From Marinifilaceae bacterium (lineage in GTDB: Bacteria; Bacteroidota; Bacteroidia; Bacteroidales; Marinifilaceae): a stretch of 64,000 nucleotides of DNA. The DNA lies in NCBI GenBank assembly GCA_016936255.1, contig JAFGYE010000107.1, positions 1 through 64,000 of the forward strand, given 5' to 3'. The notes beneath the pieces are model-generated. The model made no database searches, was not told where the DNA came from, and saw only the letters and a program-made list of their open reading frames with translations. This document shows positions 2,806 to 55,020 of the stretch, in pieces. The position numbers and the translations under genes are program-made. Numbering within the stretch: the stretch's first letter is position 1; the number at the start of each line of letters is the position of its first letter.

Positions 2806-3110
2806 TACCCGTGCAAGCAGGGGGCAATTAGGAGGAAATCATCCGGTGATATTTTTAGGCTATGCTTATGGCAGTGTTAATATAGGATATAAAAGTTTTG
2901 TTTAACTTGGCTTACTCATAAAAGAGAATTATTTTAGAAGGGGAATATCGATTGCCTTATTGATTTGGTATCTTTAATAGGATGTAAAGAAACAAGTTAT
3001 TCTTGCACAATGTACGGTTTGGAAACAAATAAGGGGTTTTGGGTGACAAAGTAAAAAGGAATTATGTTTCATGTCATAGCTTTCGGGCTGCATACAATCA
3101 GAAAATTAAT

Positions 3111-3815
3111 ATGATCGAAAAAAAGGATGATTATTTAGACAATCATTACATACATAGAAGTAATTGGTTGAGAGCAGCAGTTCTTGGTGCAAATGATGGA
3201 ATTTTATCAACGGCGAGTCTTGCTATTGGTATTGCTGTAGCAACAGATATTCGAGAACCTATTGTGTTGGCAACTGTAGCGGGATTGGTTGCAGGGGCAT
3301 TGTCAATGGCGGCAGGAGAGTATGTTTCAGTAAGTTCTCAAACAGACGTGGAGGCATCGGATATTGAAAGAGAAATACAAGAGTTGGAAGAAATGCCTGA
3401 AATTGAGTTGCAGCGATTGGCAGAAATTTACGAAAAAAGAGGATTGAAAAAAGAAACAGCATTAACTGTTGCAATAGAATTAACCGAGCACGATGTATTG
3501 GGTGCACATATTAGAGATGAATTGGGAATTAATGAAATCAGTAAAGCCAAACCAATACAAGCCGCTTTTGCCTCAGGTGCCGCATTTAGTGTAGGAGGAG
3601 TACTACCCCTTTTGGTCACTCTTTTTTTACCCTTAAAAAATATGGAGTATTCTCTTTATTGTTTTGCGATCTTCTTTTTGATCCTTTTGGGTGCATTAGC
3701 GGCTAAAACAGGTGGTTCAAGCGTAAGCAGAGCAATTATTCGAATTACATTTTGGGGAACTATTGCAATGGGACTTACGGCGGTAGTTGGATATTTATTT
3801 GGAGTCGCTATTTAA
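3111..3815 (+). CDS. VIT1/CCC1-family Fe2+/Mn2+ transporter
   Basis: This integral membrane protein (234 residues from the chosen start) belongs to the VIT1/CCC1 family of vacuolar-type iron and manganese transporters. It shows the first-helix signature ANDGILSTASLAIG and the AGALSMAAGEYVSVSSQTD segment. A charged helical cytoplasmic region follows (EREIQELEEMPEIELQ...), which in this family binds metal, and then three C-terminal membrane segments. The likely role is removal of Fe2+ or Mn2+ from the cytosol. The frame opens at a TTG at 3039, but those 24 residues are atypical, so I choose the ATG at 3111. A bidirectional terminator follows. Confidence 0.88.
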   Translation: MIEKKDDYLDNHYIHRSNWLRAAVLGANDGILSTASLAIGIAVATDIREPIVLATVAGLVAGALSMAAGEYVSVSSQTDVEASDIEREIQELEEMPEIELQRLAEIYEKRGLKKETALTVAIELTEHDVLGAHIRDELGINEISKAKPIQAAFASGAAFSVGGVLPLLVTLFLPLKNMEYSLYCFAIFFLILLGALAAKTGGSSVSRAIIRITFWGTIAMGLTAVVGYLFGVAI

Positions 3816-14804: not shown

Positions 14805-15920
14805 ATGAATAATTCATTTTTTAAAAAGCTGTTTTTTGCTTTTTCGATACTAGGCGGCATGTTTTTAACTTCTTGCGGAAGCAGTAGTGGAGGTGGAGAA
14901 GAGGACGTTTTCGAGTTTAAATCTTCCGACCTAACCAACAAGTATTGGTATGCAAATCCTTTTTTATCATCTGATTATAATCGTAATGATGCTTTGATCG
15001 TGTATCGTTTTGAAGGGGGAGGAGTGTTGAAAAAGCAAGAATTTAGTGGTCGGAGAGATGAAGTTGTTGGAGAATGGAGTTTAATAGATAATCAATTGGT
15101 GATTAAAGATGAATCTATTTCTGCGGATAATAGGCAAGAATGGTTTATTCAGGATAAATCAACTAATTCCTATTTGAAGCTTAATAGTTCGACAGGAACC
15201 AGGGAGTTTTATACAGATATAGATGGAATAAATGATGTGAAAGCAGATGCTTATGTTGTGAATGAGTTACGTTTGGTTAATAATGTTTATGAGTCAGCTT
15301 ACCGATTGGAATATATTGTTCGTGGTAATAGTCTTTCTAATGTAACTGTTTTGCCTGACGCTTCAAGTTCTTATCAGTTAGAAGAATTTACCGATTTTAA
15401 AGGGGAGAAGGCATTTCAGTTATCAGCTAATGATCGGTTTAAGTATGTTAATGATTTTGCGGGATCTCAAACGATCAAGTTTTATATCAAACTGGCTAAT
15501 AAAGAGCAGTATAAATTGGAGGAACAACTTTACGCTTCAGATATTAAAGCGTTAAGTAATTTTGATATTACAGCATCACATGCAAGTGGTAGTTCACAAG
15601 TTACTGTAAAGTGGAAGGCGGTAGATGAGGATAATATTTACTACTATGTTGAGATTTTGGATAAGAATGCGAATGAAAATGCTCCTAAATTCAGAAGCGC
15701 AAGACAATCTGCTGTGGCAGGAGAGGAAAAAGAAATTGTAATTAGCCCTTCTACTGCTAATGAATTGGATTTGTTGTCTGAATTAACAGTAGGTGAAGAC
15801 TATTTTGTGAAGATTATTGGTTTCAAATACGAAGACGGCATTCATGCAGATAATAGTTCAAACAAGGAAGAAAACATACAAGCTATGACACGCTTTGTTT
15901 TAAAAGGTGGTCAGTGGTAG
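14805..15920 (+). CDS. Lipoprotein of unknown function
   Basis: This 371-residue protein has a lipoprotein signal peptide ending in FLTSC (lipobox Cys near residue 24), followed by a Ser/Gly linker (GSSSGGGEE). In Bacteroidota such acidic linkers often favour surface display. Residues 50-120 carry a lipocalin-like pattern (YWYANPF...GEWSLIDNQLVIKDE). Residues 250-370 resemble a fibronectin-III-type beta domain (VTVKWKAVDEDNIYYYVEILDKN). I recognise no enzyme motif. It is monocistronic with its own terminator, and its 3' end faces the second repeat locus. Confidence 0.72.
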   Translation: MNNSFFKKLFFAFSILGGMFLTSCGSSSGGGEEDVFEFKSSDLTNKYWYANPFLSSDYNRNDALIVYRFEGGGVLKKQEFSGRRDEVVGEWSLIDNQLVIKDESISADNRQEWFIQDKSTNSYLKLNSSTGTREFYTDIDGINDVKADAYVVNELRLVNNVYESAYRLEYIVRGNSLSNVTVLPDASSSYQLEEFTDFKGEKAFQLSANDRFKYVNDFAGSQTIKFYIKLANKEQYKLEEQLYASDIKALSNFDITASHASGSSQVTVKWKAVDEDNIYYYVEILDKNANENAPKFRSARQSAVAGEEKEIVISPSTANELDLLSELTVGEDYFVKIIGFKYEDGIHADNSSNKEENIQAMTRFVLKGGQW

Positions 15921-15972: not shown

Positions 15973-15975
15973 TTG

Positions 15976-16037
15976 AATCCAAAACAAAATACTTCACTGT
16001 TATAATCAATAGTTTTGCTTGCTCTGCCTGTCCTCAA
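15976..16037 (-). pseudogene. Decayed copy of the neighbouring hydrolase gene's 3' end
   Basis: Positions 15976-16021 align without gaps to 16337-16382, the end of the alpha/beta hydrolase gene, with 36 of 46 bases identical. Weaker identity runs on to 16037/16398. In the matching minus frame it reads AEQAKLLIITVKYFVLD against the intact AEQPKLLVKTVEYFALD. The equivalent of the Trp codon just upstream has become TGA, and the terminal TAA is now TCA. It is therefore a non-functional remnant of about 20 codons, in the same orientation as the intact gene and separated from it by array 2. Confidence 0.82.
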
Positions 16038-16069
16038 GCAAATGTAGCCTGTCCCCACAATTTGTTTCG

Positions 16070-16320
16070 CTTCCGGATTCTTTCCGTTGCCTGGAAATAA
16101 TTCTCCGTACGTGAAGGCGAGTGTTCCGTTCGTACTTTCACTTGTTCCGTTCGCGAACGGAAGGGTATTCACTCTGAACGGAGTATTTCAACCTGCGCAC
16201 GGAAGCACAAAACTGCCGAACGGAAAGGGTTCCAACGCGCACGGAAGTCCATCCATGCCAAACGGAAGACCTCAGTCGGCGCACAGAGATGGTCAATTTA
16301 CGAACGGGAGTGTCTTCTCC
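16070..16320. repeat. Inverted 21-bp periodic array (array 2)
   Basis: The core ACGG(AAG) occurs at exact 21-bp steps on the right: 16157, 16178, 16199, 16220, 16241, 16262, 16283 (as ACAG) and 16304. Its complement CCGT occurs at 16084, 16105, 16126 and 16147 on the left, also 21 bp apart. The arms meet in the perfect palindrome TTCCGTTCGCGAACGGAA (16145-16162). Bases between cores are poorly conserved. The 7-codon period leaves both strands open as NG/HG-containing heptads, but no credible start or family supports coding. The GC content is clearly higher than in the flanks. Confidence 0.88.
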
Positions 16321-16334
16321 TGAAATAGCACATT

Positions 16335-17144
16335 TTAATCCAAAGCAAAATATTCAACAGTTTTAACCAGTAGTTTTGGCTGTTCGGCATGCACCCAATG
16401 TCCGGCATTGGGAATGGTTGTTATTTCTGCTTTTGGAAATATTGTTCGTATTAAATTGTGGTCGTTATCGCTTATGTAATTCGATTTTTCGCCACGGATA
16501 AATAGAACAGGAAATGCTGTGATTCCTTTGCCTTCTGCAAAACGATCACCATCAATTCCATCCATTATCTGGGGTAAGTAATCGTTAATGGTTTTAATAT
16601 TTAGTTTCCAGATAAACTGTTTGTTCTCGTCTCTTTTCAAATTTTTAAGAAGAAATTGTCTGACACGTTTACTGGTTATACTTTCTGTTAATTTTGCATC
16701 AATTTCGGTTCTGTTTTTGTAAAGCGATAAATCCAAATTAAGCATTGCTTTAACGATGCAGGAGTGATCGATTGTTTGTGGGGCGTAATCGGAAATTTTG
16801 CTGTAGTTTTTGGGAGCAATATCCACAACAAGTAAACTGCTGACTCTTTCGGGGTAATCAGCAGCAAAAAACATGACTGTTTTTCCGCCCATCGAGTGCC
16901 CAAGCAGAGTGGCTTTCTCAATTTTGTGATCATCCATAAATTCCAGAAGATCTTCTTTTAAATCCTGATAGGTATGTGAATTGGAATGCGGAGAATCTCC
17001 GTGGTTTCTTTGATCTATGATATAAACTTCAAAATTGTTTGACAGCTCTTTGGCAATCGTCAGCCAATTGTCTGATGCACCATAAAGACCATGAAGAATT
17101 AGTAAAGGGTGGCCTTTGCCAAGTTTTTTGTAATTGAGTTTCAT
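16335..17144 (-). CDS. Alpha/beta hydrolase, YbfF-like esterase
   Basis: This 269-residue cytosolic protein has the alpha/beta hydrolase fold: oxyanion segment LILHGLYGASDNW (about 14-26), the nucleophile elbow GHSMGGKT (about 83-90) and the catalytic His in NAGHWVHAEQP near the C-terminus. The cap region around SITSKRVRQFLLKNL and the DQRNHGDSPHS segment recall the YbfF esterase group. The natural substrate is unknown. Its 3' end is duplicated as a decayed fragment on the far side of array 2. It lies downstream of pdxJ, separated by a strong terminator. Confidence 0.87.
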   Translation of the reverse strand: MKLNYKKLGKGHPLLILHGLYGASDNWLTIAKELSNNFEVYIIDQRNHGDSPHSNSHTYQDLKEDLLEFMDDHKIEKATLLGHSMGGKTVMFFAADYPERVSSLLVVDIAPKNYSKISDYAPQTIDHSCIVKAMLNLDLSLYKNRTEIDAKLTESITSKRVRQFLLKNLKRDENKQFIWKLNIKTINDYLPQIMDGIDGDRFAEGKGITAFPVLFIRGEKSNYISDNDHNLIRTIFPKAEITTIPNAGHWVHAEQPKLLVKTVEYFALD

Positions 17145-54083: not shown

Positions 54084-54096
54084 GTAATTGTAATTA

Positions 54097-54264
54097 CTAT
54101 TGTAGATTTTGATATGTCTATTGTTAATTTTAGAAGCCTATTGGAACAATTACTATTCCTATTGGAATAAGTTGATCTCTATTGCTATATTACATTATCA
54201 TATTGGAGAATAATGAGTGCTATTGGTGGATTGATTACCCTATTGTAAAATTAGTCAACTATTG
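54097..54264. repeat. CTATTG periodic array (array 3)
   Basis: TATTG begins at 54098, 54119, 54139, 54160, 54180, 54201, 54221, 54241 and 54260, so the steps are 21, 20, 21, 20, 21, 20, 20 and 19 bp. Eight of the nine copies are preceded by C. The bases between are not conserved. The non-triplet spacing rules out a coding repeat. It fills the space between the nhaC-leader hairpins and the stop of the 253-residue gene, and the last copy overlaps that stop codon. Confidence 0.8.
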
Positions 54265-55020
54265 TGGGGCTTTAGTTTGTTTTTTTGTCGCTTTTTCTTG
54301 TGCGTATTTTTCGTAAAATTTTCTTTGATATTCGCTCGAATACCTCTTCAGTTTTTCTTCATTGTTCCAATAGGTATATTTTCCGTAGGTGCGAATTTCG
54401 TCGACCAATTGTTTAAGGTAGGTATAGGCTCTGTCGCGCAACTGTTTTTCTGGTCTGTTTTTACTGTTTTTCACACCATCTACTTTATTCAGCAAATCGA
54501 GAAGTTCTTGAGAAAGTTGACTGGCACGGTCAATTTTAGCGGTGTTAAAATTAATGGCTTTTAATGGATCAGGATATTGTTTTGCAAAAGCAGGGTAGTC
54601 GCTCATGTCCTGAATCAAATCCATATTGCCATTGCCACCGAGTATGTTTTTTAGCGTCTTTAAAATTTCAGGATGGTTTCTGAAGGCAAACTGAAAATCG
54701 TGTTTTAATTCTCGCTGCAACTGGCTGGCTTCATTTATTTTCACACTCCATTCCTTAGTGTTGGTTAAAGCCTTTTGATAAACCGCAGTCCATTCCGATT
54801 GTTTGTCTTGCAGAAATTTAGCTCTTGGTGTAAGATCATTAATTAAATCTTCGCTTAATCCTTTTGCTAAGAGCTCTTCTTTATCTTCCATTGCATATTG
54901 ATGAAGTTTTCCAGCCTCGCCAATACAAATTGCGGCTGGAATTGTTGGCAAAACAATTTTGTCTTCAGGAATTTCAAGAACCAATTCATCAATCGTTTTT
55001 GTGGCTGTTATATTCGTCAT
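54259..55020 (-). CDS. Helical protein of unknown function
   Basis: I do not recognise this 253-residue protein. It has no signal peptide or membrane segment. The N-terminus carries a short hydrophobic, proline-containing segment (ELVLEIPEDKIVLPTIPAAICIGEAGKLHQYA). The rest is predicted mainly helical and highly charged, with heptad-like stretches around 95-120 and 165-245 and a lysine-rich tail (EKATKKQTKAPQ). Composition matches its neighbours. It is upstream of the nhaC-like gene on the same strand but separated by 368 bp containing array 3. The stop codon TAG lies within the last CTATTG copy. Confidence 0.65.
   Translation of the reverse strand: MTNITATKTIDELVLEIPEDKIVLPTIPAAICIGEAGKLHQYAMEDKEELLAKGLSEDLINDLTPRAKFLQDKQSEWTAVYQKALTNTKEWSVKINEASQLQRELKHDFQFAFRNHPEILKTLKNILGGNGNMDLIQDMSDYPAFAKQYPDPLKAINFNTAKIDRASQLSQELLDLLNKVDGVKNSKNRPEKQLRDRAYTYLKQLVDEIRTYGKYTYWNNEEKLKRYSSEYQRKFYEKYAQEKATKKQTKAPQ

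Follow-up and report, generated by a model that had tools for sequence, protein, structure and literature searches.

Array 2 is a repeat array in the window, the 64,000-nucleotide stretch of a Marinifilaceae bacterium analyzed here (contig JAFGYE010000107.1, positions 1 to 64,000). It sits between the convergent ends of an open reading frame at 14805-15920, which by eye we take to be lipoprotein-like and for which a protein family scan gave no match, and an alpha/beta hydrolase gene at 16335-17144 (minus strand), whose product is 98% identical to its counterpart in L. euxinus, which places the window in a species of Labilibaculum. The features of the locus, together with a further array of the window, are as follows.

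15973-16037, plus strand: direct copy, 65 bp long and 74% identical, of the 3' end of the hydrolase gene (16334-16398), on the far side of array 2
16061-16150, plus strand: left arm of array 2, with TTCCGT-type cores and a decayed unit near 16061
16145-16162, unstranded: 18-bp palindrome TTCCGTTCGCGAACGGAA linking the inverted arms
16157-16310, minus strand: right arm of array 2, eight cores, TTCCG-type when read on the minus strand
16311-16326, plus strand: end motif TGTCTTCTCCTGAAAT of array 2
16335-17144, minus strand: alpha/beta hydrolase gene, the 3' end of which borders array 2; a neighbor, outside the module proposed below
2245-2845, unstranded: array 1, with a period of 21/42 bp and an identity at lag 42 that reaches 0.98

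The right arm contains eight cores, starting at 16157, 16178, 16199, 16220, 16241, 16262, 16283 and 16304, all steps being exactly 21 bp. The left arm contains four opposite-strand cores, starting at 16082, 16103, 16124 and 16145, again at steps of exactly 21 bp, and the arms are joined at 16145-16162 by TTCCGTTCGCGAACGGAA, a perfect palindrome of 18 bp. A preliminary description had reported this layout, and it is borne out by the core positions and by shuffled controls: the longest run of ACGGAAG-like words (at most two mismatches) on a 21-bp lattice was seven in array 2, as opposed to two in each of 20 dinucleotide shuffles and two to three at steps of 19, 20, 22 and 23 bp. Read in order, the right-arm cores are ACGGAAG, ACGGAGT, ACGGAAG, ACGGAAA, ACGGAAG, ACGGAAG, ACAGAGA and ACGGGAG; the word ACGGAAG, which the same description had given for the cores, is thus exact in only four of the eight, and the other four deviate from it. 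The units pair up as 42 bp. The GC content of the array region is 51.5%, compared with 36.0% for the window. Array 2 is confirmed as a real DNA array of short cores exactly two DNA turns apart.

By eye, the same array is present at the same locus in L. euxinus (L053) and Labilibaculum K2S (L055), and a related array, 42 bp longer, is present in the OB13 MAG (L056). At this locus L. manganireducens (L054) carries an array of 21/42-bp period that differs from array 2, with a copy of the 3' end of the hydrolase gene after it (by eye); this copy measures 68 bp and resembles the 65-bp copy of the window. Marinifilum (L058, L060, L062) has other, GCTGGCGGAA-like repeats there (by eye), which the lag-21 detector did not flag, and no array was seen by eye at the locus in L. 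filiforme (L059), MAG11 (L057) or G004 (L027).

Regarding the wider population, a search of nine genus genomes for three TTCCG words at exact 21-bp steps, with one mismatch, gave 160 matches, against 14 for the reversed control; the matches overlap within arrays, and each of the nine genomes has some. Such a search of the genome and its relatives had been proposed along with the preliminary description. A looser pattern was present in 71 of 96 relatives, with counts at or below the control level in many of the distant ones. A systematic 400-kb sample of G004 contained nine lag-21 segments, against zero to five at the other lags tested; lag-21 detection also picks up 7-bp repeats, which account for several of these nine. 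Separate arrays with a 7-bp period, visible at lag 21 too, were observed in G004 at L373, L376 and L386. The end motif TGTCTTCTCCTGAAAT was found in seven of the nine genus genomes and, by eye, at the array end in about 21 of 30 genus loci. It also occurs away from arrays, one copy lying beside a transposase-like end; its presence both beside arrays and elsewhere led us to set aside its interpretation as the end of an insertion sequence. Array 2 belongs to a seemingly undescribed class of arrays.

Among the open reading frames around the arrays, two recurrent proteins were found, neither with a Pfam match over the cut-off. Both match the NCBIfam model NF052641 ('PQLLE family protein'), with best E-values of 5e-11 and 3e-8, below its cut-off; five proteins scanned against the model scored 17-43 bits, the curated cut-off being 80 bits. 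At E≤0.01 it matches 17 of the 24 members of alignment A1; P0001 gave no match. Matches over the 80-bit cut-off number seven, in four of 396 genomes, and include C47, C78 and C16 of the window's own genome. With the best seven candidates per genome scored, matches of any strength occur in at least 11 of the 396 genomes of the class, across which the superfamily is patchy. The PQLLE-type partner proteins have about 210-330 aa, are predicted to be mostly helical and form a superfamily around NF052641. Alignment comparison with hhalign yielded 99.7% for A3-A4, 84.7% for A2-A4, 67.1% for A2-A5 and 1.2% for A2-A3; classes i and ii of these proteins are therefore not joined directly (1.2%) and are connected only via A4 and NF052641. 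The PQLLE-like proteins scanned gave no DNA-binding domain over curated cut-offs and no recombinase or nuclease family match, and the single-sequence fold of a PQLLE-type protein was poor (pLDDT 42). In seven of eight PQLLE-type gene pairs dN/dS was 0.06-0.23, and in the eighth dN was 0, a comparison that shows purifying selection on these genes.

Three further observations concern proteins of this kind. Distant PQLLE-like proteins at L398 and L400 have a C-terminal CarboxypepD_reg-like (carboxypeptidase-regulatory-like) beta-sandwich, which would be odd in a DNA binder. The class ii protein at L323 (1501-2259) weakly matches the Cascade large subunit (PADLOC Cas8e, E 3.7e-5; Pfam Cse1, E 0.003, below the cut-off). 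Two members of A1 weakly match PF01133 (best E 3.8e-5). The window itself contains one such gene, with an array beside it.

54259-55020, minus strand: the window's own PQLLE-like gene (class ii), 253 aa, found by homology and itself without an NF052641 match
54090-54250, minus strand: array 3, just 3' of gene 54259-55020, core CAATAG/CTATTG, 20-22 bp steps, weak (0.54 at lag 21)

Array 3 is AT-rich, in contrast to array 2. Apart from 54259-55020, no PQLLE-like open reading frame of at least 80 aa was found in the window, and none lies beside array 1.

A lag-21 array was detected within 500 bp of 67 of the 81 PQLLE-type proteins (32 of 42 clusters at 70% identity), compared with at most eight of the 81 at other lags; under a stricter threshold the figures are 46 and at most three. 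This pooled set of 81 takes in L364-L368, L385 and L361. Other open reading frames, taken from the G004 sample, had a lag-21 array nearby in 21 of 196 cases (10 of 196 under the stricter threshold). Within 700 bp, an array accompanies 50 of 57 PQLLE-like open reading frames, one of the 50 lying inside its frame. The side of the gene is characteristic of each class: class ii arrays are on the 3' side in 28 of 31 cases (loci from 30 of 108 matches), class i arrays on the 5' side in 21 of 26 (28 loci, 26 of them with an open reading frame of at least 100 aa). In a lag control on 56 open reading frames under the stricter threshold, lag 21 gave 17+18 matches, and the other lags from 12 to 33 gave none on the 5' side and zero to two on the 3' side. 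The first two PQLLE queries had been picked for lying beside arrays; NF052641 was not picked in this way, but was reached through matching them. A search of the 396 genomes with this model returned 22 loci, four of which were already known from the window's own genome. All 22 hold a lag-21 segment, that of L395 more than 1 kb from the gene, and under the stricter threshold 18 do so at lag 21, against at most three at other lags. On these comparisons, the linkage between gene and array is very likely real. That the array class usually lies beside PQLLE-type genes suggests that protein and array work together.

In a gene-linked array, a core of about 8-10 bp that is particular to that array recurs roughly 5-14 times, spaced on a 21-bp (20-22) lattice. 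Position weight matrices were scored for 56 arrays, and the 43 with at least four phased pairs (24 class ii, 19 class i) were kept for the similarity and step tests; training favored partners at 20-22 and 42 bp, and the scan was free, counting distances of 15-27 bp only. In these tests 248 of the 286 scored steps are 21 bp, most others being 20 or 22 (class ii: 137 at 21, 20 at 22, 12 at 20 and 3 at 15 bp; class i: 111 at 21 and 3 at 20 bp). Steps that may vary by one base agree better with helical phase than with codons, since such shifts break reading frames. By eye, about 13 of the 24 class ii arrays kept have cores of the form YTCC-NNNN-CA, e.g., TTCCGTAACA, TTCCGTATCA, TTCCGCTACA and CTCCAAGACA; others are close to it (TTCCGTTCGC, TTCCGCAC, TCAGTTCGC), and the remaining ones are different. 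Among the class ii arrays, protein identity and similarity of the matrices are correlated with rho 0.63 for pairs below 80% identity and 0.38 for pairs below 60%, values reached in 0 of 2000 permutations each. The correlation is weaker among the 19 class i arrays (rho 0.25 and 0.26 at the same two limits; 15 and 14 of 2000 permutations). Judged from these comparisons, the core is shown to be gene-specific and to track protein similarity; co-inheritance of neighboring DNA may explain part of the tracking.

Array 2 has the core of L330/L345. Arrays with a core of its type were found in three other genomes: in G007 (L. euxinus; L362) the array, the closest gene-linked one, follows a PQLLE-like gene at a distance of 116 bp on the 3' side, in G002 (L363) this distance is 59 bp, and in G006 (L361) the PQLLE-like gene beside the array is broken. 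The array-2-type PQLLE protein (L330/L362) has 248 aa. The Ancylomarina-like genome G064 has a related array (L193) whose neighbors, by their printed starts, resemble those of L362, and no PQLLE-like open reading frame of at least 80 aa was found at L193. The palindrome reads TTCCGTTTGCAAACGGAA in L361, being altered on both sides, and is imperfect in L193, L362 and L363. At L362 (4324-6953) and L193 (4177-6833) the arrays border a gene pair, with a weak HNH match in L193; we assume an ATPase label for this pair, which may be a Septu-like defense pair. Between loci of the array-2 family the 8-bp core is 75-94% identical and the spacer 59-74%, the core being better kept than the spacer in nine of nine comparisons, and array 2 keeps its 21-bp steps in its relatives. 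The earlier view that only the core is conserved while the spacers vary freely holds for the better-kept core, but not for the spacers, given their residual identity. Its reading of array 2 as an element of the DNA itself, in phase with two turns of the helix, has good support in the constant steps, in the step lengths of the gene-linked arrays and in the advantage of core over spacer.

These comparisons bear on whether the arrays are plain minisatellites, that is, functionless slippage products lying near genes by chance or by hitch-hiking. Gain of 42-bp units, such as the one extra pair seen by eye in L056, and the presence of other periods in the genome, such as 7 bp, are what slippage would produce. 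A period of 21 that is constant across different cores, the linkage to 67 of 81 proteins, a side of the gene that is fixed per class and the nine of nine comparisons in favor of the core make this origin very improbable.

It was also considered that the 21-bp period, which preserves reading frames, is maintained by a seven-residue protein repeat, a frame of seven codons having been described as open on each strand of array 2. One plus-strand frame is indeed without a stop across the 228 bp of the array in the window, L053, L055 and G096, a length of 75 codons, and open reading frames of 77-78 codons overlap the array; the minus-strand part of the statement fails, as all three frames of that strand contain one to three stops. 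The frame open in array 2 contains 3, 2, 2 and 1 stops in the related arrays of G006, G064, G007:C7 and G002:C16, respectively, three of which have another frame open. Within the open frame, pN is 0.249 and pS 0.232 between the window and G064, and 0.035 and 0.037 between the window and L055. The check for protein-level conservation of the heptads therefore came out negative, with pN about equal to pS and the frame interrupted in four related arrays at other loci, and array 2 shows no conserved open frame under protein-level constraint of the kind expected of a heptad-repeat gene. As 32 of the 169 class ii steps of 20-22 bp are 20 or 22 bp as well, heptad coding was rejected for array 2, and we regard it as extremely improbable.

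Folding of array 2 as RNA was no better than that of shuffles on either strand (z -0.19 and -0.64), by which the reading as an RNA hairpin was rejected, and no Rfam family matched in the window. This result bears on a protein-RNA pair resembling type III toxin-antitoxin systems, in which the array would be transcribed and the repeat RNA bound by the neighboring protein. In type III systems (ToxIN) a gene is adjacent to tandem repeats, and this adjacency is common to the gene-linked arrays described here; class i arrays, moreover, lie 5' of the gene and have cores that are mostly on one strand (16 of 19). The present arrays differ from ToxIN in their 21-bp period, in their divergent spacers and in class ii cores that are often on both strands, with at least two cores per strand in 18 of 24 class ii arrays (an upper bound, since cores such as those of L323 and L364 are near-palindromic). 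Class ii arrays also lie 3' of the gene, and array 2 lacks the RNA-fold signal. A pair of this type is very unlikely.

Several arrays occur away from a partner gene. Within one and the same genome, family-B arrays (TTCCGGCATAAGTCTGAAGTG type) accompany the class i gene and recur at several loci elsewhere. One orphan array in G003, at a locus common to five genus genomes, is 0.91 similar to the linked array of its own genome, compared with 0.81-0.85 to the arrays of that locus in three other species. Of the 30 arrays checked, three have duplicated flanks (68, 237 and 122 bp), besides the 65 bp of the window. At L359, a 237-bp direct duplication (87%) surrounds an array (2869-3105 and 3418-3652), and the duplication of 122 bp is at L275 (91%). 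The likeness within G003 and the flank duplications point to copying or conversion of arrays, as far as can be judged from comparison.

Such dispersal is also what would be expected if the arrays were non-autonomous mobile DNA of a REP- or MITE-like kind, mobilized by the PQLLE-type protein or by a nearby transposase. Besides the orphans at several loci, the direct flank copies and the G003 orphan's greater likeness to its own genome's linked array, the common end motif TGTCTTCTCCTGAAAT and a Y1/RAYT-like gene near two family-B arrays speak for this explanation. Against it, the PQLLE-like proteins scanned lack any recombinase or nuclease family match, 26 of the 30 loci checked are without a flank duplication, and the orphan locus of G003 is common to five genus genomes, so that movement would be slow. 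The queries tried gave no match in plasmid, phage or viral collections either, and a plasmid, phage or viral home for the arrays was rejected on this ground. We consider mobile DNA of this kind unlikely, yet the most serious of the alternatives. Two candidates for a general partner other than the PQLLE-type protein were likewise rejected: the Y1/RAYT gene is near only two of the family-B arrays looked at, and a Vsr endonuclease is seen only by family B. In six genomes (L279-L284) the class i array is bordered on its other side by a gene for a Vsr-type mismatch endonuclease, and in four of the six an HNH-type protein comes next (one scanned, the rest by printed start). A gene of 644 aa has different neighbors in different genomes (L353, L355, L358, L202): in three species a family-B orphan array is near it, and in the window's genome a PQLLE gene that is accompanied by another array.

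We propose a two-part module consisting of a PQLLE-type gene and an adjacent phased array of its own core. The cognate protein would bind the cores side by side on one face of the helix, forming a multi-site nucleoprotein platform, and orphan arrays would be further sites or decaying copies; nucleoid organization, regulation and spread of the arrays are candidate roles at the level of the cell. Comparison between genomes shows the linkage, the gene-specific core, the phasing, the purifying selection, the orphan copies and the likeness of one orphan to a linked array within its genome, and binding of the array by its cognate protein on one helix face is the best explanation of these, one that we hold with moderate confidence. 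Some results count against this proposal, among them the absence of DNA-binding domain matches, the poor fold, the patchy distribution and the indirect link between classes i and ii noted above. An array went undetected at 14 of the 81 PQLLE-type proteins (35 of 81 under the stricter threshold). The misses include C48, C82 and C70, three of the 13 copies in the window's genome, and the sole copy in the unbiased G004 sample; L392, where a long open reading frame overlaps the array, was scored as a miss, and counts as linked when the HMM match defines the gene (10 of the 13 copies in the window's genome). G004 keeps family-B arrays, and the class i gene was not found there. Array 2 itself persists even though ten PQLLE-like copies of the window's genome (C47, C78 and C16 left out) are at most 53% identical to the array-2-type gene. 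From that low identity array 2 looks like an orphan in this genome (the same-species G096 left out), and it is somewhat probable that it represents a copy of the module's DNA half, present without its gene.

If binding of the arrays by PQLLE-type proteins holds, the pairs would be naturally occurring, orthogonal combinations of protein and DNA in which specificity resides in a short word, and the arrays would be chromosomal multi-site platforms of a new kind. A bolder extension, which we offer tentatively and rather doubt, is that some Bacteroidota, notably Labilibaculum and its relatives, maintain many private pairs of helical PQLLE protein and array, distinguished by words of 3-5 bp inside a shared TTCC....CA-like frame, so that about ten orthogonal addressing systems would coexist per chromosome with the orphans as remote addresses. 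The pairing of gene and array explains the presence of many GC-rich arrays of 21-bp period in Labilibaculum genomes. In several genera it also supplies a DNA partner for a protein superfamily whose function is unknown, and the linkage makes the role of that superfamily directly testable.

Regarding known systems, RAYT genes encode an IS200/IS605-like transposase with cognate palindromic repeats (REP/BIME); according to the part of the source available, the gene lies beside its own repeat, copies are dispersed, repeat and gene evolve together, and clusters are in alternating orientation (PMC2817692). To this extent the PQLLE modules resemble RAYT/REP/BIME in a gene with its own repeat, dispersed copies, co-evolution and alternating clusters. 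They differ in that the PQLLE protein is not a Y1/HuH transposase, no match to Y1_Tnp (PF01797) having been found in the PQLLE-like proteins scanned, in a 21-bp lattice rather than single palindromes, and in that PQLLE genes usually have one array on one side instead of two flanking repeats. BrickBuilt, a 23-bp minisatellite within a MITE of Porphyromonas gingivalis, shares the short tandem units, the location in intergenic DNA of a member of the Bacteroidota and the several copies per genome; its 23-nt units are without spacers and are accompanied by IS-like terminal inverted repeats, a leader and a tail, and the portion of the account available notes no paired gene family (PMC4596501). The arrays described here have instead a period of 21, with a core of about 8-10 bp and a divergent spacer. 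The word PQLLE led to no paper in the open-access literature searched, and among the best literature matches no title or abstract describes such phased arrays, which may still be in print. The class is regarded as new, since none of the known families tested matches it in both gene and array. In plasmid iterons (with Rep) and in F sopC (43-bp repeats, with SopB), direct repeats are spaced near whole helical turns. The PQLLE modules resemble them in a repeat array beside the gene of its (here putative) binding protein, and differ in that one chromosome holds several arrays whose cores are not alike; among the array-neighbor proteins put to Pfam, none matched a Rep, ParA or ParB family, and two queries gave no match in the plasmid collection. 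On the proposed model, the PQLLE modules would share their working principle with iterons and other binding-site arrays.
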